Assembly: GCA_938074605.1 (NCBI GenBank)
Contig: CALJEI010000009.1
Coordinates: 1-39,670, forward strand
Length of the DNA stretch: 39,670 nucleotides
DNA from: an uncultured Ignisphaera sp.
GTDB taxonomy: Archaea > Thermoproteota > Thermoprotei_A > Sulfolobales > Ignisphaeraceae
Direction: 5' to 3'
Positions 7,864 to 38,506 of the stretch are shown piece after piece (within the stretch, counting starts at the first letter, position 1; every line of letters starts with the position of its first letter). Made by a program: the position numbers and the translations under genes. The notes beneath the pieces are model-generated. The model was given only the letters and a program-made list of their open reading frames with translations. It had not been told where the DNA came from and ran no database searches.

Positions 7864-8655
7864 CTAGAGAATGGCTGGTGTAATGAATGTTGCTACTATG
7901 GCTGCAAGATGTAGTGCTGTAATTACTGTTATGAAGAGTATATCGATTTTTCTAAACTTAATTGATTTGTAGAATGTTCTTTTTTTGCTATATCCAAAGC
8001 CTCTAAGCTCCATAGCCTCAATTAAATCTTTGGCTCTAATTATAGAACAGACAATTGTTGGTATTATAATGGCGGCTAGCCTTCTAATTCTATCTGTTAC
8101 TCTACCCTTTTCAAACTCTAGACCTCTAGCCCTTTGAGCATCATAGATATTTTTCATTTCATTAAATACTATAGGTATGAATCTTAGTGCTATTATAAAT
8201 GGATATACATAGGTATATGTAATACCAATTTTTGTAAATGCCTGTACTATCTGCCATGGAGTTGTTGTAGATAGTAGAATTAGTAGAGCTATTGCTAGGC
8301 AGAGAATTCTAGCTATAGACCTTATCTGCACCATGGTAGCTTCAGCTATAGATATATCGGTAAAGACAAGCGATACTATAATGTTAAACACCACTATAAT
8401 GGCGATAAATGGTGCTAACCCCCTTAAGAGAAAAATAAATTTTATAACAAGGTTTCTATATAGTGTTAGAAGAAGAGTATTTGCTATAAATAGTAGAAGA
8501 AGTATATCAAGTCTAGCTACAATCATTGATATAGCAATGGTTAGTACCACATATAGTAGTTTAGCCCTAGGGTCAACTGCATGTAATATGCTATTAGATT
8601 CTTCATATAGTAGGGCATAGCTTATAGAATCAAAAAAGCCTCGCTTCATCTTCAC
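7864..8655 (-). CDS. ecfT: ECF transporter transmembrane component (EcfT/CbiQ family)
   Basis: 263 residues with at least five hydrophobic helices. EcfT couples the two ATPase domains to the substrate-binding S protein in energy-coupling-factor importers of vitamins and metals. The family's cytoplasmic coupling helices are seen as two Ala-Arg-Gly/Ala-Met-Glu signatures: A-Q-R-A-R-G-L-E near residue 178 and E-A-M-E-L-R-G-F-G near residue 222. Both match the A-R-G and R-G-F motifs expected. Its start codon overlaps the ecfA stop (ATGA), so the two are translationally coupled. Third gene of the S-AA'-T operon. Confidence 0.9.
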   Translation of the reverse strand: MKMKRGFFDSISYALLYEESNSILHAVDPRAKLLYVVLTIAISMIVARLDILLLLFIANTLLLTLYRNLVIKFIFLLRGLAPFIAIIVVFNIIVSLVFTDISIAEATMVQIRSIARILCLAIALLILLSTTTPWQIVQAFTKIGITYTYVYPFIIALRFIPIVFNEMKNIYDAQRARGLEFEKGRVTDRIRRLAAIIIPTIVCSIIRAKDLIEAMELRGFGYSKKRTFYKSIKFRKIDILFITVITALHLAAIVATFITPAIL

Positions 8656-10361
8656 ATCCTTGAAAGCATTGTGTATAGCTCTATTTCATTCAATGGCTTT
8701 ATATATCTATCTAAATCAACTAGCTTAATAAGCATAGGTATCTGTGGAGGAGCTACTCTTGCTCTAGCAAGCAACATATCGTTATACAGTATTTCATTTG
8801 GAGGTCCTTGAGCTAAAATTCTACCATCGCTTAACACAATGATTCTATCTAGGGGGGCATATGATAGAAACTCAATGTCATGTGTATTTAAAATAATTGT
8901 CTTTCCCCTCTTTATAAGATCTATAAGTATTTCTAGAAGCTCCATTTTAAGTGAGAAGTCTATACCAGCTGTAGCTTCATCTAATACAACAACCTCTGGA
9001 TCATAGACTAGAATAGATGCTATAGCTAATCTCCTTTGCTCACCAACAGAAATTTCATAGGGTGATCTATTAACTAAATGAGATAGGTTAAAGTATTTTA
9101 GTATAGCTAGAGCTTTCTCTTCAGCATTACTAACACCCATATTTTTTGCTGAAAACATAACCTCTTCTAAAACAGTCTCTTTAAAGAATTGATGAAGTGG
9201 GTTTTGGAAAACAATACCTACATATCTAGCTAGTTCCGCTACAGAAGAGCTTAGAGTATCTCTACCAAATACCTTTACCCTACCTCTAGAAGGCTTAAGA
9301 ATACCATTAAGATGTTTTACAAGTGTTGTTTTTCCTGAGCCATTAGCACCAACTATAGCTATAAATTCACCTCTATATACATCCATATTTATACCTTTTA
9401 ATGCAATTCTCCCACTATCTGGATACACATACCATAAATCATTAATAGAGATTATTGGCTCTTTACCACTTTGCTTTACTCTACTAACTCTATCTATTAA
9501 TGCATTACTATACCAACCATTATTGTTAGACAAAAGCTTTCTAAATATATCTATAGATTCATTTATGCTTAGCGGCATGGATTCTACACCAAGCATTTTA
9601 AAGAGTCTTGATATTGAGGGAATTTCTATACCTCTACTAAACTTTCTATCTGCAATTATAGCTAGAACATCCCTAGGCTTTCCATCTGCAATAATGTGTT
9701 TATCTAATACAATGAGTCTAGATATATATTTTATGAGTTCTGATAGTCTATGTTCTATTACAACTATGGTTATACCATATGTTTTATTAAGGTTATGGAG
9801 AATCTCTAGAAGCTCTTTTACACTATATGGATCTAAATGTGCCAATGGCTCATCTAAGATGAGTATCCTTGGCCTATATGCAAGAATACTAGCTAGTACT
9901 ACTTTTTGAATTTCTCCACCAGATAAACTATTTGTAGCTCTATTCCTTAGATGTTCTATCTTTAGACTACTCAATACCTCTTCAATTCTTTTTAGAATTG
10001 TTTGTACATCAAATAAAAGGTTTTCAAGAGGGAATGTAATCTCCTCCTCAACAACTAAATTAACTATTTGGTTTTCAGGTATCTGAAGCACAATACCAAC
10101 TCTACCAATAATACTCCGGATATCCTTTTCAACAACATTAATTCCATCAACACATACCTCTCCATTAAGTGTACCTCCATAGATATGTGGTATAAGTCCT
10201 GTTACTATTCTAGCAAATGTTGACTTCCCCCCTCCAGATGCACCAGCAATTGCTACAAATTCTCCATAGTCTATAGATAGATTGATATTCTCTAGTGCTG
10301 GAGAGGTAGAATTTGGATAAAAATAAGTTATGTTTTTTAACTCAATAGCTTTATTACACAT
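8652..10361 (-). CDS. ecfA: ECF transporter fused ATPase (EcfA-EcfA' tandem ABC domains)
   Basis: 569 residues with two complete ABC ATPase domains, equivalent to EcfA1 and EcfA2 fused. Domain 1: Walker A G-A-S-G-G-G-K-S-T (40-48), Q-loop Q-I-P-E-N-Q (near 93), signature L-S-G-G-E (146-150), Walker B I-L-I-L-D-E-P (167-172), His in V-I-E-H-R (near 204). Domain 2: Walker A G-A-N-G-S-G-K-T-T (338-346), Q-loop F-Q-N-P (near 386), signature degenerate as I-S-V-G-E-Q (437-442), Walker B V-V-V-L-D-E-A (near 460), His in N-T-H-D. The second signature lacks the usual L-S-G-G, so the two ATP sites may be unequal. It powers the T/S complex encoded on both sides. Confidence 0.93.
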   Translation of the reverse strand: MCNKAIELKNITYFYPNSTSPALENINLSIDYGEFVAIAGASGGGKSTFARIVTGLIPHIYGGTLNGEVCVDGINVVEKDIRSIIGRVGIVLQIPENQIVNLVVEEEITFPLENLLFDVQTILKRIEEVLSSLKIEHLRNRATNSLSGGEIQKVVLASILAYRPRILILDEPLAHLDPYSVKELLEILHNLNKTYGITIVVIEHRLSELIKYISRLIVLDKHIIADGKPRDVLAIIADRKFSRGIEIPSISRLFKMLGVESMPLSINESIDIFRKLLSNNNGWYSNALIDRVSRVKQSGKEPIISINDLWYVYPDSGRIALKGINMDVYRGEFIAIVGANGSGKTTLVKHLNGILKPSRGRVKVFGRDTLSSSVAELARYVGIVFQNPLHQFFKETVLEEVMFSAKNMGVSNAEEKALAILKYFNLSHLVNRSPYEISVGEQRRLAIASILVYDPEVVVLDEATAGIDFSLKMELLEILIDLIKRGKTIILNTHDIEFLSYAPLDRIIVLSDGRILAQGPPNEILYNDMLLARARVAPPQIPMLIKLVDLDRYIKPLNEIELYTMLSRM

Positions 10362-10375
10362 CTATTACATCCTTA

Positions 10376-11140
10376 CTATTTAAAACTCTTAAGATTTTTA
10401 ACAAAAAGCATTTCGCTAATGCCTGGAGCTCTAAGTAATGCTTTTATAGCTGGTATCGCTATTGCAAATCCTATTATAGCTTCAAACATATATTGAACTA
10501 CATAAAATAGTGGACTAACTGTAAATAATCCTCTTACTACTGTAATTTTTGTTATTCCAAATACTCCACTGTATACAGGTGGTAATGAGAAGATAAAGCA
10601 CCCAAGTGCTTTATCAAACTCTCTAGCTATAAAGAAGATAAGATAGAGTGCTATATACTGAACACCTTTTCTACTATTAAGCATTCTAATAGTAACTGGA
10701 ATGAGTATAGCGGCTATTATTTTATCAAAATATGCAGCCATATATACATACCAGTACTCAGTTACTGGGTAGAACGGTGGTGTAAACATAGATGATATAA
10801 GTATTGCAAGCATAATTCCTATAGCTATCTTCCATCTTTTTGTAGCAAGCATACCAGCAGCTAATGCTGAAAGAGGTGCACAAGGTATAAATGGAACACC
10901 ATATGGATTTGGTGGTGTTAAAGTCTTAATAATATTGCCAACGAGTACTGCTGCAGCACCTATGTAGGGTCCTAGGATAAGACCTAGTAAAGGTGCTAAT
11001 GAAGCTCCTAGATCCATTTTTATTTGTGGCAATCCTATGACAGGTACTGCAGGGAGAAATAGAAATATATAGTATATAGCAGCTCCAATTCCTGCAAAAC
11101 CTGCTATATAGCTTGGACTAACCTTTCTACTTCCACTCAT
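10376..11140 (-). CDS. ECF transporter substrate-binding S component, substrate unknown
   Basis: 254 residues, six or so hydrophobic segments, and an N-terminal basic stretch followed by a small-residue helix (A-G-F-A-G-I-G-A-A-I-Y-Y), the Ala-rich TM1 that docks onto EcfT in S components. Later segments L-G-L-I-L-G-P-Y-I-G-A and G-I-A-L-A-G-type repeats support the fold. I chose the ATG at 11138-11140: the longer frame would begin at 11227 inside the divergent regulator and translate through the promoter. TATA TTTAAATA lies about 35 bp upstream of this ATG. First gene of the operon. The ligand (a vitamin, cobalt/nickel or other cofactor) cannot be read from the sequence; a cobamide precursor is attractive given the corrinoid genes 8 kb away, but that is speculation. 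Confidence 0.75.
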   Translation of the reverse strand: MSGSRKVSPSYIAGFAGIGAAIYYIFLFLPAVPVIGLPQIKMDLGASLAPLLGLILGPYIGAAAVLVGNIIKTLTPPNPYGVPFIPCAPLSALAAGMLATKRWKIAIGIMLAILISSMFTPPFYPVTEYWYVYMAAYFDKIIAAILIPVTIRMLNSRKGVQYIALYLIFFIAREFDKALGCFIFSLPPVYSGVFGITKITVVRGLFTVSPLFYVVQYMFEAIIGFAIAIPAIKALLRAPGISEMLFVKNLKSFK

Positions 11141-11170
11141 TACATCTTCCTGTGCTGAGTTTAACACAGG

Positions 11171-11204
11171 GAAATATTTAAATGTTTCTGTGTAAATATA
11201 AAAC
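11171..11204. promoter_or_regulatory. Palindromic divergent promoter/operator of ECF operon and regulator
   Basis: The sequence is centred on ATTTAAAT (11177-11184), which can serve as a TATA box in both directions. Around it is an imperfect inverted repeat: ACACAG-GGAAAT on the left and GTTTC-TGTGT on the right, matching with a 2-nt offset. Predicted start sites lie near 11150 (minus) and 11207 (plus), just before the two start codons. A dimeric winged-helix protein encoded 15 bp to the right is the obvious candidate binder. Confidence 0.5.
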
Positions 11205-11218
11205 AGTGTGGGGTAATA

Positions 11219-11731
11219 ATGAAGCATAGTATTGAATCAAATGATTACTGGCCATATATAGTTATAATGCCTATAGATCCTAGTAAAAGGGCAAGCTATA
11301 CACTGACACTATTCTCAACACCAACATCATTAGAAATACTAAACCTCTTTAAATGGGATGAAGAGTTATGTCAAAAGAATATTATATTGAGTCTCCGCCA
11401 CCACTCAAACAAAACCATAATAGCTACTCTTAGAAAACTTGTTGAACTTAAGTTGCTTAATGAGGAGATAAAGACTATTAAATATAACAATAGAGTTGCT
11501 AGAGTAAAATGCTATAGACTTACAGATATTGGTAAATGGTATAATCTTTTATTTAAAGACCCTAAAACATTTGATAGAGAGATATTGAGGGAGAATTTAG
11601 TTGAGCTAATCACATGGCTTATAAGTAGATTTAAAATATATGGTAAGGAGCTTGGTATTGATATAATGAGAGTTATTTGTAGCGCCATAGCCGATATAGG
11701 AGATGGGGGTAACAGCTCTGAACAGAAATAA
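11219..11731 (+). CDS. Winged-helix transcriptional regulator, probable ECF-operon repressor
   Basis: 170 residues. The segment around residues 33-95 has the helix-turn-helix-wing pattern of ArsR/MarR-like regulators: S-L-E-I-L-N-L-F (helix 1), N-K-T-I-I-A-T-L-R-K-L-V-E-L-K-L-L (helices 2-3), then a wing with K-Y-N-N-R-V-A-R-V-K-C-Y-R-L-T-D-I-G. The C-terminal helices (residues 120-155) probably dimerise. No metal-binding cysteine pair typical of ArsR sensors is visible. It is divergent from the ECF transporter genes with a palindrome between, so autoregulation and control of the transporter are likely. The effector is unknown. Confidence 0.7.
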   Translation: MKHSIESNDYWPYIVIMPIDPSKRASYTLTLFSTPTSLEILNLFKWDEELCQKNIILSLRHHSNKTIIATLRKLVELKLLNEEIKTIKYNNRVARVKCYRLTDIGKWYNLLFKDPKTFDREILRENLVELITWLISRFKIYGKELGIDIMRVICSAIADIGDGGNSSEQK

Positions 11732-16933: not shown

Positions 16934-17227
16934 CTATTGTTTTTGTGCAAGTTCTTCTTCAGTCTTTCTTCTCTTTATAGCTCTATCAAATACTATCCAA
17001 TTTCTATACCATTCCTCATTTTCCTTCTTAAGTAGTTCTAGAATTGCGCGTGTAAGATCTCGAGCTGAAATCTCATTTACATTTTGCTCAAGTAGTCTTC
17101 CCTCAATTATTTTAGCTATCTTTCTTGCAACTTCAGGTGTTGCTCCAGCTTTAAGACAGCTAACAACTATCTTCTCTGGTATGAATTCTTCTTTAGAACC
17201 ATCCCTCTTGACTATAGTTATGGGCAT
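16934..17227 (-). CDS. Stand-alone ATP-cone domain protein
   Basis: About 97 residues consisting almost only of an ATP-cone: P-I-T-I-V-K-R-D-G-S-K-E-E-F at the start (the classical V-x-K-R-D-G signature), K-I-V-V-S-C-L-K-A-G-A, and I-S-A-R-D-L-T-R-A-I-L-E-L. ATP-cones bind ATP/dATP and regulate ribonucleotide reductases or, with a zinc ribbon, form NrdR. Neither a zinc ribbon nor a reductase domain is present, so this is a lone nucleotide-sensing domain. The ATG has GGAGGT 4 nt upstream, which decides the start; an upstream ATG six codons earlier is less likely. The A+T-rich promoter (near 17268-17280) faces the divergent P-loop gene. Confidence 0.82.
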   Translation of the reverse strand: MPITIVKRDGSKEEFIPEKIVVSCLKAGATPEVARKIAKIIEGRLLEQNVNEISARDLTRAILELLKKENEEWYRNWIVFDRAIKRRKTEEELAQKQ

Positions 17228-17348
17228 GTTACCTCCACCTAACATACTCTAGCTAGGAAGAAGTGTTATAAAATTTTATGAAGTATAGTAGTATATCCAA
17301 TATATGCTTATAATACTTGAATAGAGTTTTTATTGATGTGGAGATAGT

Positions 17349-18215
17349 ATGGTTAGGGTATTGATATCAGGGCTCCTTACATATGACTCTGGTAAAACAT
17401 GGCTAGGGATCACACTTGCTAAAAGACTTTTATCACATGGGGTTAGTGTTGGAGTCTATAAACCTATTGCTGGACATAATGCATGGAGCCAGTATTCAAC
17501 TGTTGTAGAGAGCTTTAAAAGAGGGGTTTTGGTTGGTGAGGATGTGCTTAAATACACCAGCATACTTAAGGATGTTGATATAGAGCTTATGAATCCTATT
17601 GACATATTGTTAGCACCCCCTGATCCACTGATCTATCCTGGTATCAATATCTATAGTTATCTCTATGATATAGAGAATCAATTTGGGCAAATTGTTTTAG
17701 CTAGAATAAGCCTTTGTTTAAAGAGAGTAACACAACATCTTATGTTTAAAAATAACGTTAGAAGAGTAGCTCCACCACTGAGAGACGAACTTGAACAGCT
17801 ATCAGCAAAGCTAAATGCTATTGAAGATAGTCTCGATAGTTTTATTCAGAGGTTGAGGAGTAGCGATATAGAGAATGAGCTAATGGGATGTCTTGAAAGA
17901 ATAGAGCTGGGAAGAGATGTTATACTTATTGAGTCGTTCAACAATGCTATAGCACCCTTTAGAAGGATACTTGATGATATTGACGTACTGCTTGTAGTTG
18001 CTCCAAGTATCGTAGCAATCTATAGAGATGATAGAGCTATTATAAAAGCTGTTAACGAAGCTGTTAATAGATATGGTGAAAAAGGCTTTGAGGCAGTACA
18101 CCTCCTATCTAGGGTAAGGCCCAGCACAACATTCTATATTAGACCACGGAAAAATATAGATGAATACGATGAAGCTATAGAGCAGCTAGCTAAAGCCATA
18201 ATATCAACACAATAA
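17349..18215 (+). CDS. Predicted P-loop ATPase/GTPase, dethiobiotin-synthase-like fold
   Basis: 288 residues. The N-terminus has the start strand V-R-V-L-I-S-G followed by L-L-T-Y-D-S-G-K-T-W, a deviant Walker A with the S-G-K-T core, as in BioD/CobQ-type P-loop NTPases. Later, V-I-L-I-E-S-F-N-N (near residue 195) and V-L-L-V-V-A-P-S (near 217) are the hydrophobic strands of the Walker B and next strand. A coiled-coil-like helix (D-E-L-E-Q-L-S-A-K-L-N-A-I-E) is inserted at residues 142-165. This matches archaeal predicted P-loop ATPases of unknown role. It is not biotin synthesis by context; it diverges from a lone ATP-cone protein. Confidence 0.65.
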   Translation: MVRVLISGLLTYDSGKTWLGITLAKRLLSHGVSVGVYKPIAGHNAWSQYSTVVESFKRGVLVGEDVLKYTSILKDVDIELMNPIDILLAPPDPLIYPGINIYSYLYDIENQFGQIVLARISLCLKRVTQHLMFKNNVRRVAPPLRDELEQLSAKLNAIEDSLDSFIQRLRSSDIENELMGCLERIELGRDVILIESFNNAIAPFRRILDDIDVLLVVAPSIVAIYRDDRAIIKAVNEAVNRYGEKGFEAVHLLSRVRPSTTFYIRPRKNIDEYDEAIEQLAKAIISTQ

Positions 18216-18858: not shown

Positions 18859-18868
18859 TTTATATATT
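18859..18868 (+). promoter_or_regulatory. TATA box of the corrinoid-methyltransferase operon
   Basis: TTTATATATT, placing the transcription start near 18888. That leaves about 15 nt to the GTG at 18903, with AGGTG at 18892-18896 as ribosome-binding site. This spacing is the reason I prefer 18903 over the upstream GTG at 18894. Confidence 0.5.
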
Positions 18869-18902
18869 ATACCACCTCTAACACCTGCTACAGGTGTATG
18901 TG

Positions 18903-19562
18903 GTGAATCTTAATAAAGAGGATTTACTCAATAGATTGAAGGAAGCAACAATCAATGGTGATTCTGATGAGGTTGCTAGACTATCTAAAAAGGTTATTGA
19001 GTTAGGTATTGATCCTCTTGAGGCTGTTGAAAAGGCGTTGGTTAAAGGAGTTATTGAGTTAGGGGATAAGTGGATTAGTGGTGAAGTCTTCATATCTGAC
19101 ATTATTGCTGCTGCTGATGCTATGAAGGCAGGTCTATCTATTCTTAAGAGTGAAATAATTAAGAGAGGCAAATCTATTAAGTATTTAGGAAGGATAGTTA
19201 TCGGTACTGTTGAGGGCGATATTCATGATATTGGTAAAAGTATTGTTGCAGCATTGTTAGAGGCTTCAGGTTTTGAGGTAATTGATCTAGGTATTGATGT
19301 ACCTCCACAGAAGTTTATAGAGGCAATAAGACAGTACAATCCAGATGTAATTGGTATGAGTGCTCTAATGACTACTACGATGCTTAAGCAAAGGGAGACT
19401 ATAGAGGCGATAAAACAAGCTGGTTTGAGGGATAGAGTTAAAATTGTTGTAGGTGGTGCTCCAACAACTGAAGAGTGGGCTGGGGAGATAGGCGCCGATG
19501 GATGGGCACCTGATGCAATTAGTGCTGTTGAATTAGTTAAAAGGCTACTAAATATTGTATAA
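18903..19562 (+). CDS. Corrinoid (cobalamin-binding methyl-carrier) protein, MtbC/MttC/MtgC type
   Basis: About 219 residues, two domains. Residues 1-85 are the helical cap (L-L-N-R-L-K-E-A, A-L-V-K-G-V-I-E-L-G-D-K-W). Residues 95-219 form the Rossmann-like B12-binding domain with G-D-I-H-D-I-G-K (His as lower cobalt ligand, near residue 108), D-L-G-I-D-V-P-P near 130, G-M-S-A-L-M-T-T-T-M near 151, and V-G-G-A-P-T-T near 180. It accepts a methyl group on Co(I) from the partner methyltransferase encoded next. GTG start. It lies a few bases from the methyltransferase gene, one operon with the permease behind. Organism context: such proteins are known in methylotrophic methanogens and in acetogens; no methanogenesis gene is seen here. 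Confidence 0.93.
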   Translation: MNLNKEDLLNRLKEATINGDSDEVARLSKKVIELGIDPLEAVEKALVKGVIELGDKWISGEVFISDIIAAADAMKAGLSILKSEIIKRGKSIKYLGRIVIGTVEGDIHDIGKSIVAALLEASGFEVIDLGIDVPPQKFIEAIRQYNPDVIGMSALMTTTMLKQRETIEAIKQAGLRDRVKIVVGGAPTTEEWAGEIGADGWAPDAISAVELVKRLLNIV

Positions 19563-19572
19563 GGTGATCCCC

Positions 19573-21021
19573 TTGGCTAAACCCAGGATAGAGGTTCTTG
19601 ACAAGGAGGAGGTTCTTGAAATACATGAGCGATCACTTAATATTATCAGTAGAGTAGGTGTAAAGATAGAGCATGAAGAAGCTCTTAAACTACTATACAG
19701 TATTGGTGCTAATGTAGATTTTAGCAAGAGAATTGCCAAAATACCTGAGTATATTGTTAGAGAAGCTCTAAAGAGAACACCAAGCTGTGTAAGGCTCTAT
19801 CATAGAGATGGTAAGCAATACATCGAACTATATGGATGGAACACCTACTTCGTTGTAGGTTCTGCAGCCTACTACTACATGGATTTAAGAAATGAAGTTA
19901 GAAGACCGCTATCAAAAGATTTAGCTGATGTAGCAAAGGTTACAGACTATCTACCAAATACACATTTAATGTCAACAGCACTAGTTCCAGCTGATATATC
20001 TGAGGTTCTTGCTGATCGTTGGAGAATGTATGTTGTTATGAAGAACTGTTCTAAGCCTATAGATACAGGTGCCTTTACAATGGAGGGAGTACCGGATGCT
20101 GCAAAGCTTATGGCTGCCGTAGTTGGTGAGGAGAATATCAGTAAAAAACCCTTTATGATATTTGCTGTGTGTTCCTCACCACCACTTAAATGGAGTGCCC
20201 TAACAACACAGAATCTAATGGACTGTGCAAGATATGGTATACCAGCACATATTATACCAATGCCGCAGACTGGAGGTACGGCTCCAGCAACGCTAGCAGG
20301 CGCTATTGTACAAGCAAATACTGAGTTTCTAGCAGGCCTTGTAATAGCTCAATTTACAAAGCCAGGGGCGCCTATAGTCTATAGCGGATCTCCGACGGTA
20401 TTTGATCAAAGGTTTGCAACATCCTGTACAGGCTATATAGAGGTTAGCCTTATATCAGCAGCAACCTCACAGCTTGCAAAATTCTACGGTATTCCAAGTG
20501 GATGTTATACAATGGTGAGTGATGCTAAAATTGTTGATACACAATCCTCTTTAGAAACAGCTTTTGGTGCAATGATATCAGTGTTAGCTGGTATAAATAT
20601 GGCTATAGGTTCTGGTATGCTGCTGGAGGAAAACTGTATAAGTTTAATTAAGCTTGCTATAGATGATGATATTGCTGGCTCAGCCTTGAGGTTTGCTAAA
20701 GGCATACATGTTGATATAGAGACTGTCGCTGAGAGGGTAATAGAGGAGATAGGCCCAGGTGGACTATTTCTAAAACATAGACATACACGTGATTGGTGGA
20801 GAAAAGAACATTTTATACCAAGGCTTTTCGATAAGAGAACTACAGATATGTGGAGAAAGGGTGGATCTAAAGATCTAAATACTGCTGCTAGAGAATATAT
20901 TGAAAAGATATTGAAGGAACATACACCAGAGCCCCTACCACCAGATATTGAAAAGACCCTAAGTGAGGTTATAAAGGGGATAGCGAAGAAGTATGGTATT
21001 GAGAAACTACCCGAGGTGTAG
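19573..21021 (+). CDS. MttB-family methyltransferase without pyrrolysine (glycine-betaine-type)
   Basis: About 482 residues of the trimethylamine methyltransferase (MttB/COG5598) superfamily. Characteristic blocks: N-terminal I-H-E-R-S-L-N-I-I-S-R-V-G-V-K, the F-V-V-G-S-A-A-Y-Y-Y region, P-M-P-Q-T-G-G-T-A-P-A-T-L-A-G-A near residue 240, I-V-Y-S-G-S-P near 268, and E-T-A-F-G-A-M-I-S near 330. The pyrrolysine-containing TMA enzymes have an in-frame amber codon; none occurs inside this frame (its normal stop is TAG). Non-Pyl members demethylate quaternary amines such as glycine betaine, carnitine or proline betaine, so a methylated amine is the likely substrate. The TTG start follows AAGGTGATC by 3 nt; the frame opens 6 codons upstream (TTG 19555, GTG 19564). 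Next to its corrinoid protein. Confidence 0.88.
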   Translation: MAKPRIEVLDKEEVLEIHERSLNIISRVGVKIEHEEALKLLYSIGANVDFSKRIAKIPEYIVREALKRTPSCVRLYHRDGKQYIELYGWNTYFVVGSAAYYYMDLRNEVRRPLSKDLADVAKVTDYLPNTHLMSTALVPADISEVLADRWRMYVVMKNCSKPIDTGAFTMEGVPDAAKLMAAVVGEENISKKPFMIFAVCSSPPLKWSALTTQNLMDCARYGIPAHIIPMPQTGGTAPATLAGAIVQANTEFLAGLVIAQFTKPGAPIVYSGSPTVFDQRFATSCTGYIEVSLISAATSQLAKFYGIPSGCYTMVSDAKIVDTQSSLETAFGAMISVLAGINMAIGSGMLLEENCISLIKLAIDDDIAGSALRFAKGIHVDIETVAERVIEEIGPGGLFLKHRHTRDWWRKEHFIPRLFDKRTTDMWRKGGSKDLNTAAREYIEKILKEHTPEPLPPDIEKTLSEVIKGIAKKYGIEKLPEV

Positions 21022-21028
21022 ATAGGCC

Positions 21029-22546
21029 ATGGCGAGCTCATTAAGAAAAGAACTTGGTATAGTTCTACTCACAGGTATAGGTATTGGTGCAGTTATAGGC
21101 TCTGGTATATATACCCTTCCAGGACTTATAGCATCTGTTTCTGGACCCCTCTCAATTACAGCCATAGTACTAATGGGTGTAATAACCTTTATACTAATGT
21201 ATATACTTGCAAAGCTTGGTAGAATGTATCCTAGGGCTGGTGGTCTGTATTATTTTGCTAGAGAGGTTCTAGGGGATCTTGCAGGGTTTATAACAGGTCT
21301 TAGCTATTATTTCTGTTGTTTCATAGGTACTGCAGCCATAATCTATGCATTCCTTCTATATCTCTCATACTATATACCTAATATTGTTATAGGTTTAACC
21401 CTCACGCCGCTGGGTACAGCTATAGCCATAGTGATATTAGCTATAGTAACAGCAATTAATATTATTGGTGTAAAGTATGGTGCTGGACTAAACTTTATAT
21501 TAACAATTGCTAGAATAGCACCTCTATTAGCATTTATAGCAATAGCGTTTACAAGAATTAATATAGGTAATTTTGAGCCATTTGCACCATATGGACTTGG
21601 AAGTATAGGGCTTGCAGTAGCATTTGGCTTCTGGATGTTTGTTGGTTTTGAGAGCGTTGTACTGGTTGGTGAGGAGGTTAAGGAGCCTGAGAAGATAATA
21701 GTAAGAGCAGCCATGGCAACGGTAGCTATAGTTACTACAATCTACATACTGCTTATAGTGTCATTTACAGGGGCTATAGACTGGGAAGGTCTAGGGATAG
21801 CTAGAGGGGACTGGGGAGCGTTAGGAGAACTCTCATCACCTTTAGCTGATGTCTCTAGAGCTCTTGGGGTAGTAGGGTTAGCTGAGCTAATGGTTATAGG
21901 AGCTGTTATTGCATCAGCTGGCTGTTTTAGTGATTGGGTATTGCTCCAAGGACGTGTAGCCTATGCTCTTGCTCGTGAGGATAGATTTTGGAAGCCTATA
22001 GCATATGTAAATCCGCGCTTTGGAACGCCATCAAGAGCATTAATACTATCATCACTACTAACAGCAATAATTATGATATTGATTCCAAGCTTCCCCAACG
22101 TTATACTAATTGCAATGATAACAGAGTTTATACCCTACGGCATCTCAGCGCTAAGCCTCTCATCAATAGCGGGACACAGCCGAAAGATGATGGCTATAGG
22201 GGCTATAGGCTTTCTTCTAGCTTCCCTATATATATACTGGGCTTGTTGGCCATGGACGCTTACAGGCACCATACTAGCTATATTGAGCCTTATACTCTAT
22301 CCAATTATAGTAAAGAGCTCCTCACTATTCTTAAAAGAGCTAAAGAGAAATACCTGGTACATTGTATACTTAATTGGACTAACACTAATTTCACTACTAG
22401 GCGATGCAATGTTTGAATACAACAACTTTCTACCAATATCACCCCTAAACATATTTACTACACCAATAGATGTGGTTGTCATTATAATATTTGGAATTGC
22501 AATATTTACATGGGCTATAAAGACGCAGAAGTCAAAAATGTCTTAG
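21029..22546 (+). CDS. APC-superfamily amino acid/amine permease
   Basis: 505 residues with about 12 hydrophobic helices. The first contains G-I-G-I-G-A-V-I-G-S-G-I-Y, the G-x-G-x-x-x-G signature of TM1 in the APC (amino acid-polyamine-organocation) family, and a second characteristic block is G-F-W-M-F-V-G-F-E-S-V-V-L-V-G-E-E near residue 205. Acidic residues in cytoplasmic loops (E-E-V-K-E-P-E-K) fit the inner face. It starts 7 bp after the methyltransferase stop, so it is co-transcribed and probably imports the substrate of the methyltransferase. A T-run (22561-22566) follows the stop. Confidence 0.88.
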   Translation: MASSLRKELGIVLLTGIGIGAVIGSGIYTLPGLIASVSGPLSITAIVLMGVITFILMYILAKLGRMYPRAGGLYYFAREVLGDLAGFITGLSYYFCCFIGTAAIIYAFLLYLSYYIPNIVIGLTLTPLGTAIAIVILAIVTAINIIGVKYGAGLNFILTIARIAPLLAFIAIAFTRINIGNFEPFAPYGLGSIGLAVAFGFWMFVGFESVVLVGEEVKEPEKIIVRAAMATVAIVTTIYILLIVSFTGAIDWEGLGIARGDWGALGELSSPLADVSRALGVVGLAELMVIGAVIASAGCFSDWVLLQGRVAYALAREDRFWKPIAYVNPRFGTPSRALILSSLLTAIIMILIPSFPNVILIAMITEFIPYGISALSLSSIAGHSRKMMAIGAIGFLLASLYIYWACWPWTLTGTILAILSLILYPIIVKSSSLFLKELKRNTWYIVYLIGLTLISLLGDAMFEYNNFLPISPLNIFTTPIDVVVIIIFGIAIFTWAIKTQKSKMS

Positions 22547-22814
22547 TTCCAAAATCAATATTTTTTAACCTCAATTTTCTATCTAATTCCATAAGATGCA
22601 ATTTCGACTCAGCAAAACCTTACTACAAGTTTTATAGGGAGATTATGTTCATAGAATTTTGAAACTCTTATAATAAAATTTAGATCTATTAGAGGCCAAA
22701 AACCTAACGTTGATAGGTACATAAAGGTATTTTAGTTTAGTATGGTTTATAGAGTTGAGATGGAACAACATGATGATGAGGAAGAGCCGAAGTGATTTAA
22801 TGAGCGGATTATCC
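22547..22814. other. Spacer with terminator and C/D RNA
   Basis: Between the permease and the convergent MFS gene. It holds the T-tract terminator and, at its right end, the C/D box RNA. The middle (22580-22760) is A+T-rich and shows no protein-like frame. Confidence 0.4.
22561..22577 (+). terminator. Probable T-tract terminator of the corrinoid-methyltransferase-permease operon
   Basis: TTTTTT at 22561-22566 followed closely by further T-rich sequence, 15 bp after the permease stop. Archaeal RNA polymerase terminates at such tracts without a hairpin. No competing gene is present on the plus strand. Confidence 0.4.
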
Positions 22815-22824
22815 TCAGCTGAAA
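22771..22824 (+). ncRNA. C/D box guide sRNA (2'-O-methylation guide) no. 2
   Basis: C box ATGATGA is at 22773-22779, then a 12-nt guide, a D'-like GTGA at 22792-22795, a 4-nt spacer, a C'-like ATGAGCG at 22800-22806, a 12-nt guide and a D box CTGA at 22819-22822. Outer boxes are perfect and inner ones degenerate, as is common in archaea; both guides are exactly 12 nt. ATGG just upstream and CCAT just downstream could pair as a terminal stem. The D' guide is complementary to TCGGCTCTTCC, a sequence conserved in 23S rRNA domain V. The 3' end overlaps the last codon of the convergent MFS gene by a few bases. The D target was not recognised. Confidence 0.65.
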
Positions 22825-24011
22825 CCATATTTTCTATATAATCTATCGACTATAGAGTAGAGTAGTATTGATGTTAATAGCAATGCTGAGGATAGAAATA
22901 TGCCGTATTCCATAGAATTTGTGGCTGCAACTATATAGCCATTTACAATAGATGAGAATATGCCTGAGAAGGGCCCTGCTAAAGTATATATAGCACTAAA
23001 TCTACCGATAATATCCATGGGTATAACTTCATTTACTATAGACCAAAATGATGGTGTTGAAATTCTGTACATTATAACGGATAGCAATATAGATGCCATT
23101 CTAATTGTAGGTGGGCTGAAGAGTACTGAAGATAGTAGCAGAATAGTGGATGGTATTAGCCCTATATATAGAATTGTTATCTTTCCCTTTAAACCACCTA
23201 CATTATCTGAATAATATCCTGCTGCAACCTCTAATACACTAGATACCATAGCTACTAGCACCATATAAATTGCAATATAGTTATAGCTATATCCAAGCTC
23301 CTTTACTAAAAATGTTGAGAGCCAGTTAACTATAAAGCTCCATGTATATAACGCAAAGAGAAAAGCTAGAAATAGAAGTATTCCTAATTTGATAATTCTA
23401 CTTCTATCTAAAATTTTGGTTCTAGAACTCTCTCTAGCTCGATTACTACTCCATATACTATCGATAGAAAATCTCCATGCAGTAACTGTAATAGGTATGT
23501 AGATAAAGCCTATAGTGCTTGCTAAAATCATTGAGTTTCTCCAATTGCTACCTATTAATGCAATAATTACATATGTGAGTGCAAGACCAATTATAGCGCC
23601 AGTATTATATAGGGCAGTTAGATAACCATATCTACGACCACTTGAATATAGTGATGTAATTTTTGCACAAACTGGCCATACGAATGGCATTGAAAAGCTT
23701 AAGAGTATTCTAGCAATAGTTAGAATAGCTAGGTTTATAGAGAATGCAGTTAGTATTGAAGATATTGAGAGTATTGTTAGAATGGCTATTAGAACTTGAA
23801 GGGGGTTAGCTCTATCTATATATCTCCCAATAGTTGGAGCTGCTATAACAGATACTAGAATCCATAGTGCCATCAAAACACCCATCAAATCATAGCCTAT
23901 ACCAAGCTCTTCTACAACAAGGGGGAGGACTGTTCCAAATAAACTAAACTGTATAAATGATACTGTTGTAAATCCTAGGCAGATTAGCGAAACTACATGC
24001 ATAACTTTCAT
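22815..24011 (-). CDS. MFS transporter (1)
   Basis: About 398 residues with 12 predicted membrane helices. The loop between helices 2 and 3 carries the MFS motif A form G-R-Y-I-D-R-A-N, and a second copy before helix 9 reads G-Y-Y-S-D-N-V-G-G-L-K-G-K, confirming two six-helix halves. The C-terminal half ends in R-L-Y-R-K-Y. The ATG is at 24011, preceded by a GTG; TATA TTTAAATTT is at about 24043-24053. Substrate is not inferable; the gene lies beside the amine module but is convergent with it and separately promoted. Confidence 0.8.
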   Translation of the reverse strand: MKVMHVVSLICLGFTTVSFIQFSLFGTVLPLVVEELGIGYDLMGVLMALWILVSVIAAPTIGRYIDRANPLQVLIAILTILSISSILTAFSINLAILTIARILLSFSMPFVWPVCAKITSLYSSGRRYGYLTALYNTGAIIGLALTYVIIALIGSNWRNSMILASTIGFIYIPITVTAWRFSIDSIWSSNRARESSRTKILDRSRIIKLGILLFLAFLFALYTWSFIVNWLSTFLVKELGYSYNYIAIYMVLVAMVSSVLEVAAGYYSDNVGGLKGKITILYIGLIPSTILLLSSVLFSPPTIRMASILLSVIMYRISTPSFWSIVNEVIPMDIIGRFSAIYTLAGPFSGIFSSIVNGYIVAATNSMEYGIFLSSALLLTSILLYSIVDRLYRKYGFS

Positions 24012-24378
24012 CACTATAGTAGCAGGGTAGATACAAATTCCAGAAATTTAAAGTTAGCCCTCCATATCTCTACTAAAGATATAATAGAAAAGTTCTACAA
24101 CACTAGATATGCTACTCTAATAAGTGATGTGCATTAGAGGTAATACTACTAGTTCTCAATAGAGAATCTCTATCCCTCCATACACACCTACTTTCTAAAA
24201 TCCACTATAAAAATATAGTGGAAGTGGTATACAATTAGCTATAACAGTATCTCATTATTTTATTGCTCAATTCCTTTTCTTTAATACATCTAAGTATTTC
24301 GTGCTAGAGGTATTTAAACGCCAAACTCCTTTAGATTATGTAGATAATTTCATTTCTTCTTCTACACATTAGATAATC
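24012..24378. other. Intergenic region, only a promoter recognised
   Basis: About 370 bp between two minus-strand transporter genes. The left end holds the promoter of the first transporter (TTTAAATTT near 24043-24053). The rest is A+T-rich with no convincing ORF or RNA. A GTGATGT near 24124 lacks any D box. Confidence 0.4.
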
Positions 24379-25539
24379 CTATATTAGTGTAAGAACTGCT
24401 ATAAATCCTATAGCACCTGCTATCATTAAAAAGACGTTTCCCCCAAATCCTACTATAATTCCACCTATTAGTGAGCCTATAATCGACCCTATTTCTCTAG
24501 ACATAAAGTAGTGTGCTGTTGAGAAGCCTGCAGAACCCTCTATAAACATATTGTAGAGTGTTATATCTATTAGCATGTATAATAGGGATGATAGTAATAT
24601 GTATATGGCTAAGGTTGTTAGATCTTTTACTGCATTAAGCCCTAGTATAAGTATAGAGGTTCTTAACACCATTATAGATAGTGTAAAGCTACGTCTACTT
24701 ATTGAAAGATTTCTAAATACCACTATCATAATGGCTGAAAGAAGTGCTGCTATACCGTAGGCCATCCACATACTATATAGAGATATATAGTTTCTTAGGA
24801 GAAGTGGTAATACTGTAAAAATATAATCTCCTAAAGCAGTAGCTATAGCAATGGATATAAGTATTCTATAGAGTGGTAGTACAGCTCTGCTATTCCATGT
24901 AGCTATATATATGTAGCGGGCTATATCTGGCTTATCTAGAAATAGAATAGATGAAGATGCCTTAATATACATTCCAATACCACCTATACCTCTATCTAGC
25001 TTATAGAATCTTCTTTCAAAGGATAGTAATATGGGTGGTAGAAGTATAATAGATATTGTGGTAAGAGAAAATAAAAGCCAGAACAGAATAGAAGGTGTTA
25101 ATATACCTATAAGTGATATTAAGAGAAGAGCGGCTCCACGTGATAAACTGCTTATAGATCTCTGTACTACTGAAGCTGTAGACCACATACCACTATCTAT
25201 ATTTTCAAGCATTGTTACTGAGATTGCTAAATTCATTGAAGCTGTTGAAACTGCGTGCATAGCATATAGTAGGATAGCTGTTAGATGATTTATTGCTATA
25301 AAGCCTATGTAGGAAATAGTTAAACAAGTTAGCGATATGAGCATAAGTAGCTTGTTGTATCCCTCATCAGCAAATCTATTCAGTAGTTTGTTTGCTACTA
25401 CATACACTATACTCCATATAGCTCCTAGCAACCCTAGATAGATCCCTGAAACATTTTGTGTATATCCAATAAATATAAATAGTATTGGGTCTAAAGCTAC
25501 TAGCACACCATATGCTATAGATACTACCACTAGCCACAT
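24379..25539 (-). CDS. MFS transporter (2)
   Basis: 386 residues, 10-12 hydrophobic helices of MFS type. The helix 2-3 loop contains N-R-F-A-D-E-G-Y-N-K, a degenerate motif A. The sequence between helices 6 and 7 is long and basic (F-E-R-R-F-Y-K-L-D-R), as usual. The ATG follows GAGG by 8 nt, and TTTATATG near 25560-25570 is its own TATA. No substrate can be inferred. It belongs to a cluster of three transporter genes but differs in sequence from both. Confidence 0.72.
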   Translation of the reverse strand: MWLVVVSIAYGVLVALDPILFIFIGYTQNVSGIYLGLLGAIWSIVYVVANKLLNRFADEGYNKLLMLISLTCLTISYIGFIAINHLTAILLYAMHAVSTASMNLAISVTMLENIDSGMWSTASVVQRSISSLSRGAALLLISLIGILTPSILFWLLFSLTTISIILLPPILLSFERRFYKLDRGIGGIGMYIKASSSILFLDKPDIARYIYIATWNSRAVLPLYRILISIAIATALGDYIFTVLPLLLRNYISLYSMWMAYGIAALLSAIMIVVFRNLSISRRSFTLSIMVLRTSILILGLNAVKDLTTLAIYILLSSLLYMLIDITLYNMFIEGSAGFSTAHYFMSREIGSIIGSLIGGIIVGFGGNVFLMIAGAIGFIAVLTLI

Positions 25540-25610
25540 TAATAATCCTCATAACAGTCATATAAACATGTACAGTATTAATAAGATGTTATATATATAG
25601 GCGGTGGAAG

Positions 25611-26816
25611 TTAGATGTTTGGCAACCGCTTTTTACCATATACATACATTAGTACTCTTCCAATAAAAGATGCTATAAAGATGCTTTGCATTGCTAAAAG
25701 GTTTATAGATGCTATAAAAGATCCTAGTTTTGAGGATATAGCTGCTGCTAAATTAGATGCTACTCCAAGTATTGATAGCATATATATCCTTTCATTTACA
25801 TTAGCTATGTAGAGATTGTATATACCTACAATTAAATTGAATGCCGCCCAGCCAAATCCTGAAAACATATTTAGAAGAGCTTGATATTCCATTGTATATG
25901 ATATGAGGAAGAGGAGGGGAAATAAGGATATTGGTATTATGGATATTATAAGAACTGTTTTTGGCTCTATTCTATGGTAGACTCTACTAAGGATATAGTT
26001 TCCAATTGATAGAGCTAGAGTTGCAGCTATAGTGTTCATTGATATCCATGTTTCAGAACCATTAAATATATTTATTATATAGTAATTCCATAATGCAGCT
26101 GGCAGATTCACAAAGAATGTAAACATGATCATAAAAACTATATAGTTTTTGATCTTGCCATTATTCATTATATTTTGATAGCCTCTAAGTACATCGCTAA
26201 CACCTAATTTGATTGGGCTTCTCCTTGTAAGATCTTTCATCATAGATAGTAGAGTAGATGAGGCTAGTGCTGTTATAAGGGAGGCTGTATAGCATATTCT
26301 GTAGCTTAGTAGATGTGGCCCCATAATACTAAATAGTGTTATAGATGATGTTAAGGCGATTAGCGCTGATGATGTGTTTAGTGTACTGACTCTACTAAAT
26401 ACCTTTACAGACTCCTCCCTTGGAATCATGTCAGCTATAGTATCTGAGTATGCTAGATTTGCTATAGCTCCAGATAGCTGTGCCATAGCTACAAATATGT
26501 ATAGTGCGTATCTACCTGGTACTAAATCAGAGAATCCTGTTAAAGCCCATGAAACAATATTGAGTGATGCAAATATTTTCCATAGGCTAACACGTCTATC
26601 CCTATATCTATGTAGAAGGGTAGGTGAGAGTAGATTTCCTGCGGCAAGAAATGCTAGATTTATAAATGTTAGTGTACCAAGTTCATCAACACTATAGTTT
26701 AGCACCCTAATTGCATATGCCTGGTTAAACACCATTGATATGTTTGCAGAGAAGCTGTAAAAAATTGAGTGATAGATCCATATCCTATAGTACCTGCTCC
26801 ACTGTTGCGAATTCAT
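25611..26816 (-). CDS. MFS transporter (3)
   Basis: 401 residues with 12 hydrophobic helices. The cytoplasmic loop near residue 70 has L-L-H-R-Y-R-D-R-R-V, a charged variant of motif A. It starts M-N-S-Q-Q-W-S-R-Y-Y and ends K-K-R-L-P-N-I. No signal for a particular substrate. It is 71 bp upstream of the second transporter, which has its own TATA box, so transcription is probably separate. A tripled transporter array may reflect duplication or recruitment. Confidence 0.72.
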   Translation of the reverse strand: MNSQQWSRYYRIWIYHSIFYSFSANISMVFNQAYAIRVLNYSVDELGTLTFINLAFLAAGNLLSPTLLHRYRDRRVSLWKIFASLNIVSWALTGFSDLVPGRYALYIFVAMAQLSGAIANLAYSDTIADMIPREESVKVFSRVSTLNTSSALIALTSSITLFSIMGPHLLSYRICYTASLITALASSTLLSMMKDLTRRSPIKLGVSDVLRGYQNIMNNGKIKNYIVFMIMFTFFVNLPAALWNYYIINIFNGSETWISMNTIAATLALSIGNYILSRVYHRIEPKTVLIISIIPISLFPLLFLISYTMEYQALLNMFSGFGWAAFNLIVGIYNLYIANVNERIYMLSILGVASNLAAAISSKLGSFIASINLLAMQSIFIASFIGRVLMYVYGKKRLPNI

Positions 26817-37414: not shown

Positions 37415-38506
37415 TTAGGGCTGTGTAGTGTAGCAGTATCTATAACATGCTTCTGCTAGATAATGTATGTTTTCTAAAGGTGTTGGTGGATATACCTCTA
37501 TGTGTAGCATTAGGCCTCCTGATTCCGTATTTAGTTTCTCAATAACGTTTTTAATGTGGCTATATATTTCCTCCCTCGTCCCATATGGTATTAGATGCTG
37601 TCTATCTATATCTAAATCTATACATACTCTTCCCCTAAGCTTTAACGCAATATCGTTAACACCATTTACTACATCCTGTATATTCAATATGTCTACACCA
37701 GCCTCTAAAATTACGTCTACTAATGGTAGAATTTTTCCATCGCTGTGAAAATAGATTAAAGCACCCATATTTCTTACTTCATCAAAGAATCTTCTATAGT
37801 GTGGTAGAAAGTATTTTCTAAGATGTTGTGGTTTAATTAGTGGGCTCTCCTGACCTCCTAAATCCTCTAGAAATGTAACTACATCAATTCCTCTATACCT
37901 TTTAGCTATTTTAAGCAATTCATATTGATACTCTACAATTTTCTCTATCGCCATAACAATTCTTTCATCCCCCCTATAAATAGCATAAATAAGTATATTT
38001 AGTGGAACAACATCCATGAGTTTCTGGAATAGAAAGTGATGAAGGCTAAATATTATTGGTCTACCCAATTCCCGCAATCTATCAAAGCGTTCAAACAACT
38101 CCTCCCATGTAATCATAGGCTTTGGATCAGCATAACCAATAGGATAGCCAGCCTCTGGTTCAGGTAGACTCCACTCCCTTACTTTATCCAAATTATCTAG
38201 TGGATACTGATAGGGTTCACCGCCAAGACCCTTAATCTTAAACCTCCAGACAGTACCATATACATCTCTAGTGAACCTCTCTTCAAAAATAACACCAGGT
38301 TTATCGTCAAATACTATTCTGTTAGGATCATGTTTAATGAATGCTAATGGATACTTCTTCATTAATTCAATAGCCTTCTCTCTATATGTGTTTAGAATAG
38401 GCCACGTCATAATAATTCTACATGGAATGAATTGAGGATAGCGAAATTGTGCAGCCTTTAGAAAAACCTCTCTATATAGACCACCAGTATAGATATTATT
38501 ACCCAA
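37415..38506 (-). CDS. UroD-fold methyltransferase-superfamily protein (MtaA/MtbA-related)
   Basis: 363 residues with the uroporphyrinogen decarboxylase/methylcobamide:CoM methyltransferase fold. Blocks: R-Y-P-Q-F-I-P-C near residue 18, F-L-E-D-L-G-G-Q-E-S-P near 207, F-H-S-D-G-K-I near 255, V-D-I-L-N-I-Q-D-V near 274. Zinc methyltransferases of the family (MtaA, MtbA) have H-x-C-G here; this protein has H-S-D-G, so one zinc ligand is Asp or absent. It lacks the features of true UroD (R-Q-A-G-R near the N-terminus). TTG start with GAGGTG upstream. It stands alone, 15 kb from the corrinoid/MttB genes, and could be the methyl-accepting partner, but that is inference. Confidence 0.78.
   Translation of the reverse strand: MGNNIYTGGLYREVFLKAAQFRYPQFIPCRIIMTWPILNTYREKAIELMKKYPLAFIKHDPNRIVFDDKPGVIFEERFTRDVYGTVWRFKIKGLGGEPYQYPLDNLDKVREWSLPEPEAGYPIGYADPKPMITWEELFERFDRLRELGRPIIFSLHHFLFQKLMDVVPLNILIYAIYRGDERIVMAIEKIVEYQYELLKIAKRYRGIDVVTFLEDLGGQESPLIKPQHLRKYFLPHYRRFFDEVRNMGALIYFHSDGKILPLVDVILEAGVDILNIQDVVNGVNDIALKLRGRVCIDLDIDRQHLIPYGTREEIYSHIKNVIEKLNTESGGLMLHIEVYPPTPLENIHYLAEACYRYCYTTQP

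Follow-up and report, generated by a model that had tools for sequence, protein, structure and literature searches.

A predicted non-methanogenic corrinoid-dependent demethylation operon in the crenarchaeon Ignisphaera

What would a crenarchaeon without methanogenesis demethylate with a corrinoid-dependent methyltransferase, and where would the methyl group go? These questions are raised by three adjacent genes, coding for a corrinoid protein, an MttB-superfamily methyltransferase and a permease, in a DNA stretch of 39,670 nucleotides (hereinafter the window) that represents one whole contig (CALJEI010000009.1) of the 1.63 Mb, 97.8% complete genome of an uncultured Ignisphaera sp. (GCA_938074605.1). 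On balance, we favor the interpretation that the proteins encoded by this operon import a methylated nitrogen compound and catalyze its first demethylation step, the methyl group passing via MtrH to tetrahydromethanopterin (H4MPT) with no methane being formed. The host, a hot-spring archaeon, would be a non-methanogenic, anaerobic and probably hyperthermophilic Ignisphaera.

All three genes are encoded on the forward strand: the corrinoid protein of the MttC/MtgC/MtbC type, the predicted methyl carrier (18903-19562, from GTG at 18903 to TAA, with the reading frame already open from a GTG at 18894); the non-pyrrolysine MttB-superfamily (COG5598) corrinoid methyltransferase (19573-21021, starting with TTG at 19573, stop codon TAG at 21019-21021); and the amino acid/polyamine/amine permease of the amino acid-polyamine-organocation (APC) superfamily (21029-22546, starting with ATG at 21029, stop at 22546). 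The genes are separated by gaps of 10 and 7 nt, and Shine-Dalgarno-like strings precede the methyltransferase and permease genes (GGTGAT just 5' of TTG 19573), which indicates a single operon. The adjacency of the three genes on one strand and the absence of an in-frame amber codon in the methyltransferase gene, both reported in a preliminary description of this DNA, hold: all three genes are found at the stated place, and the methyltransferase is encoded in a single uninterrupted frame where TAG serves only as the normal stop. The proposed bounding signals, a TATA-like promoter element (tttatatatta, ~18860-18870, forward strand) and a T-run that could be an archaeal terminator (~22560-22565, forward strand), are present on direct reading but are weak evidence in DNA with a G+C content of 35%; when promoter conservation was assessed, the upstream regions of the Ignisphaera copies aligned poorly, and a TATA-like string resembling that of the window was found upstream of only two of the four other copies.

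In profile searches, the corrinoid protein matched PF02310 (8e-34) and PF02607 (9e-18) and exceeded the cut-off of TIGR02370 (pyl_corrinoid, 217.9 vs 215.3 bits); it is also similar to the MttC structure 7xcn_M (1.6e-58) and contains an intact DxHxxG cobamide-binding motif (DIHDIG at residue 106), so that the MttB-like enzyme has its cognate cobamide-binding partner encoded in the adjoining gene. The intact motif, along with the presence of CobS in the genome, speaks against the possibility, raised previously, that this protein never binds cobamide. The methyltransferase matched PF06253 with 294.5 bits (cut-off 25) over columns 29-493 of the 500 in the profile, and scored 408 bits against TIGR02369, under the equivalog cut-off for trimethylamine methyltransferase (525). 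The AlphaFold model of this protein (predicted local distance difference test score 86.7) displays the MttB-type TIM barrel with the C-terminal dimerization region and, in the structural comparison that the preliminary description had proposed, agrees in fold with both MttB (7xcl, template modeling score 0.94) and MtgB (9yce, 0.93) over ~480 columns.

The three genes are found in the identical order in four additional Ignisphaera metagenome-assembled genomes (L092, L074/L093, L094 and L075), with ~60-84% identity. The placement of the window in the genus agrees with its named relatives, with identities of 83% (SKYB63) and 77% (RSNS13 and S33). The ratios of nonsynonymous to synonymous substitution rates (dN/dS) relative to the window, estimated by the Nei-Gojobori method, are 0.08-0.13 for MttB, 0.11-0.26 for the corrinoid protein and 0.11-0.18 for the permease; although these values are rough because synonymous sites are near saturation in comparisons with the more distant copies, the trio evolves under purifying selection, with dN/dS of roughly 0.1. 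Such recurrence, combined with the low dN/dS, is far beyond chance. Among the 300 genomes of the phylum that were surveyed at a threshold of E <= 1e-20, 39 encode an MttB match, and two genomes of the same genus (G161 and G179) gave none.

Examination of the active site indicates that the substrate is probably neither glycine betaine nor trimethylamine. The five MtgB residues that have been proposed, from docking, to form the glycine betaine pocket (PMC6855144, where the numbering is one less than in 9yce) are all changed in the Ignisphaera enzyme: Y94 to S97, N199 to C200, R309 to G310, H345 to I345 and F353 to E353. Of the MttB residues compared, Met249 is retained (Met230), Gly110-Thr111 is not, Tyr364 is replaced by Ile and the position of Pyl334 is occupied by Val315, so the enzyme is not of the pyrrolysine type. 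Given the complete replacement of the MtgB pocket and the Val at the pyrrolysine position, neither of the two classical substrates is supported. An adjacent acidic pair, E352 and E353, takes the place of Y352/F353 of MtgB and is compatible with a cationic substrate; the predicted substrate is a methylated amine, most likely a cationic one. Furthermore, the subclade formed by the Ignisphaera and Culexarchaeum enzymes departs from its own wider clade at V315, I345, E352 and N354, which suggests a distinct substrate; the rebuilt active site of this subclade probably accommodates a new one. The quaternary amine named in the preliminary description was derived solely from the characterized family members and amounts to a guess at the family level, whereas the rest of that interpretation, namely that a crenarchaeon lacking methanogenesis encodes a non-pyrrolysine, corrinoid-dependent demethylation module that includes a dedicated permease, is supported.

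The permease, which matched PF13520 (6.6e-40) and PF00324 (4e-36) and among proteins in the PDB is nearest to amino acid/polyamine transporters of the AdiC type (AdiC, 5e-23), would import the substrate. Methanogens likewise have amine permeases. In Ignisphaera G214, the end of the permease gene lies within the gene for a class-III aminotransferase, and a homologous gene (52% identity of the products) follows the permease gene in Desulfurococcaceae S21, where MttB belongs to a different subclade than that of Ignisphaera. This linkage of aminotransferase and permease genes, observed only in these two relatives (aminotransferases at L075:6235-7599, minus strand, and L081:1479-2900, plus strand), hints at an amino-acid-derived methylated amine. 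Hence a more specific form of the favored explanation: the module could salvage a methylated amino acid or betaine released by the breakdown of proteins or compatible solutes. This is possible but doubtful, as is the further suggestion that the permease imports amino acids and that the demethylated product is processed by the aminotransferase, given that the best aminotransferase match in the window genome is only 36% identical and is encoded on a different contig, and that the MtgB residues proposed to bind the carboxylate are lost. The permease homologue at L081:232-1476 (plus strand, 61-62% identical) is distributed over three overlapping frames and might be a broken gene or reflect assembly errors.

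The identity of the final methyl acceptor was a question posed in the preliminary description, with H4MPT and a UroD-fold partner as the options, and is largely answered by the gene content of the genome. MtrH is encoded on contig C4 (C4:123658-124509; PF02007, 279.5 bits; NF002142, 349 bits, above the cut-off of 287) and scores 204 bits against the MtgA profile, with a cut-off of 550. Divergent from it, ~115 nt apart, is the gene for the methylene-H4MPT reductase Mer (TIGR03555, 437 bits vs 348.7). The neighbors of this pair are HypF and AIRS-type genes and, downstream, genes for a membrane complex that includes Mrp-like antiporter subunits along with one subunit resembling NuoC/D. The same contig carries Mch (over the cut-off) and, at 139-148 kb, the genes for carbon monoxide dehydrogenase/acetyl-CoA synthase (CODH/ACS), namely cdhA, cdhB, cdhC, cdhD and that for the gamma subunit; all these components are above their cut-offs except for cdhB (35.5 vs 101). 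A RamA/AcsV-like gene lies directly downstream of the CODH/ACS genes, together with a gene for a CbiA/ParA-type ATPase. A second RamA/AcsV-like gene, on contig C2, provides another candidate for the corrinoid activator, a search for which had been suggested; neither of the two genes reaches the curated AcsV or RamA cut-offs. A second Mch (C3:96008-97000) was matched in two separate segments of a single frame of 343 aa, a pattern that is also seen in Culexarchaeum G133. The profile of McrA (PF02249) had no match in eight genomes including that of the window, with positive controls working, so the observation that no mcr gene is visible extends to the whole genome.

Of the possible routes, the one via H4MPT has the best support in this genome, given that the enzymes for the subsequent steps are encoded. 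Moreover, MtrH or RamA genes adjoin corrinoid-MttB loci in Culexarchaeum (MtrH in G133, RamA in G062), Desulfurococcaceae S21 (MtrH, 62% identical to that of the window genome), Bathyarchaeota and Baldrarchaeota, and the presence of MtrH next to these genes in relatives favors it as the acceptor enzyme. Under the best reading of these data, transfer of the methyl group to H4MPT would be followed by the Wood-Ljungdahl pathway, not by methane formation. The MttB-like TIM-barrel enzyme would use the imported substrate to methylate the cob(I)amide bound by the corrinoid protein, an ATPase of the RamA/AcsV type encoded elsewhere would re-reduce oxidized cobamide, and MtrH would take the methyl group from this corrinoid protein and pass it to H4MPT. 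Methyl-H4MPT could then either undergo oxidation via Mer and Mch or, together with CO, be converted to acetyl-CoA by CODH/ACS; methane would not be a product.

Several observations weigh against this scheme. The MtrH and activase genes are located outside the operon, and G161 and G179, the Ignisphaera genomes without MttB, still carry both MtrH and RamA, indicating that other donors are served too. MtrH was not found in four genomes that encode MttB and RamA (G062 and three members of family f30, G165, G111 and G242), so it is not a universal acceptor; in G062, G165 and G111, there was also no match to UroD or PF00809. An AdiC-like permease could bring in ordinary amino acids. Finally, the window genome encodes four corrinoid proteins, that is, three besides the one in the operon, and eight UroD-fold proteins.

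The UroD-fold proteins leave an alternative, namely that an MtaA/CmuA-like methyltransferase of this fold transfers the methyl group to a thiol, such as coenzyme M, rather than to H4MPT. A UroD gene directly follows the corrinoid-MttB pair in Bathyarchaeota and related loci. However, the best of the eight proteins, on contig C13, reaches 164 bits against TIGR01463 (mtaA_cmuA), under the cut-off of 235, and its gene adjoins ABC transporter genes, not methyl-transfer genes; there is no McrA to use methyl-coenzyme M, and Culexarchaeum G062, with an MttB 78% identical to that of the window, has no UroD match at all. Transfer to a thiol thus appears unlikely. Another of the eight, a distant member (41.8 bits to TIGR01463), is encoded in the window at 37415-38506 (minus strand), unlinked to the operon. 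The other acceptor type sought, PF00809 (Pterin_bind, as in MtgA, AcsE and MetH), yielded only weak matches in frames of 520-550 aa (29.8 bits in the window genome).

Less likely still, a core methionine synthase similar to MesB/MesC would take the methyl group from the corrinoid protein to form methionine. For such enzymes, the use of corrinoid proteins has been predicted (PMC7857596), the MttB carriers with neither MtrH nor UroD (G062 and two genomes of f30) need another acceptor, and in Jordarchaeia a core-MetE-like gene (PF01717; L100:11434-12345, minus strand) is located directly beside the corrinoid-MttB pair, with genes of similar size in L103, L107 and L109. Core MetE is therefore one candidate acceptor for these carriers, but no core synthase gene is present near the Ignisphaera operon. 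The possibility that glycine betaine or trimethylamine serves as the substrate after all, as for the characterized MtgB and MttB, has the common superfamily and fold and the best score of the corrinoid protein (against MtgC, 228.8 bits) in its favor and is very improbable, given that this score and that of the methyltransferase are under the MtgC (310) and trimethylamine methyltransferase cut-offs, that the pocket residues differ as described above and that the enzyme falls outside both MtgB and MttB in the phylogenetic tree.

In this tree, the whole group, with members from Bathyarchaeota, Asgard archaea and Chloroflexota, is separate from the MtgB and MttB enzymes of known function. Close relatives from outside the genus are those of Candidatus Culexarchaeum, which belongs to another class: the MttB proteins are 78% and the corrinoid proteins 81% identical to those of the window, compared to 60% for CdhC and 40.5% for MtrH in the same pair of lineages. 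Horizontal sharing of the corrinoid and MttB genes between Ignisphaera and Culexarchaeum therefore appears well supported. The Culexarchaeum sequences nest inside the Ignisphaera set within a seven-member clade (support 100/100), but a tree with Ignisphaera as a single clade was not rejected (AU (approximately unbiased) test, p = 0.079), so only the sharing, not its direction, is claimed. One Culexarchaeum MttB gene (L095 / G157:C97) is interrupted by frame breaks close to residue 105 and could be a pseudogene or an assembly error.

As for the rest of the window, the Pfam scan of the flanking genes yielded no catabolic enzyme. Downstream of the operon are three MFS-type genes in a row (22815-26816, minus strand), and Ignisphaera SKYB63 (L092) has three genes of similar size at the matching place. 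The window further encodes an energy-coupling factor transporter set (7864-11227, minus strand) that consists of a CbiQ-like T component, fused ATPases and a weak S component with riboflavin-type similarity; a 103 aa stand-alone ATP-cone domain protein (16934-17245, minus strand); and a 288 aa protein (17349-18215, plus strand) that resembles a P-loop protein at its N-terminus (GLLTYDSGKT) but matched no family convincingly.

The closest described counterparts are the mtrH-mttB-corrinoid clusters of Culexarchaeia, for which quaternary amines have been proposed as substrates (PMC9723716); like the Ignisphaera genes, these encode a non-pyrrolysine enzyme in the absence of Mcr, and the Wood-Ljungdahl pathway is present in part of that lineage. 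The difference lies in the neighborhood: in Culexarchaeum, MtrH or RamA adjoins the pair and there is no permease, whereas in Ignisphaera, the APC permease is part of the operon and MtrH and RamA are encoded elsewhere. The MtgBC/MtgA systems of Desulfitobacterium and Methanolobus (PMC6855144) similarly combine a non-pyrrolysine MttB-superfamily enzyme with a cognate corrinoid protein and, in Desulfitobacterium, a pterin-type methyl acceptor, but differ in the pocket, in the permease (OpuD) and in the acceptor enzyme, given the low score of the Ignisphaera MtrH against MtgA. With MttBC of Methanosarcina (PMC9842639), the fold and the corrinoid partner are shared but not pyrrolysine, the other active-site residues noted above or Mcr. 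MttB-based methylotrophy has also been proposed for Asgard archaea (PMC11291895) and Brockarchaeota (PMC8065059), where a non-pyrrolysine MttB and a corrinoid protein are predicted to feed the folate or H4MPT branch; the Asgard relatives are 40-49% identical and have other neighbors, such as core MetE in Jordarchaeia. The 'MtgB' O-demethylase of Bathyarchaeia (PMC10989822), considered as a lead to the substrate, was rejected because this protein of ~300 aa has no homology to known MT1 enzymes and shares only the name.

Ignisphaera bins, including S33, whose contig contains the trio, have been inferred to be fermentative (PMC8579995), and no report of such methylotrophy in Ignisphaera was found in the open-access literature, to which the search was confined, with subscription papers and preprints outside its scope. 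Non-methanogenic MttB methylotrophy has already been proposed for Culexarchaeia, Asgard archaea and Brockarchaeota; Ignisphaera is a new host lineage, to which this predicted metabolism now extends. More tentatively, Ignisphaera, a crown crenarchaeon, might be a hyperthermophilic non-methanogenic methylotroph, possibly an acetogenic one. Its growth substrate or source of assimilated carbon would be a methylated amine on which none of the characterized MttB-superfamily enzymes acts, demethylated by a substrate-specific enzyme subclade that is horizontally shared with Culexarchaeum. The complete-looking H4MPT and CODH/ACS route in the same genome makes the fate of the methyl groups directly testable.

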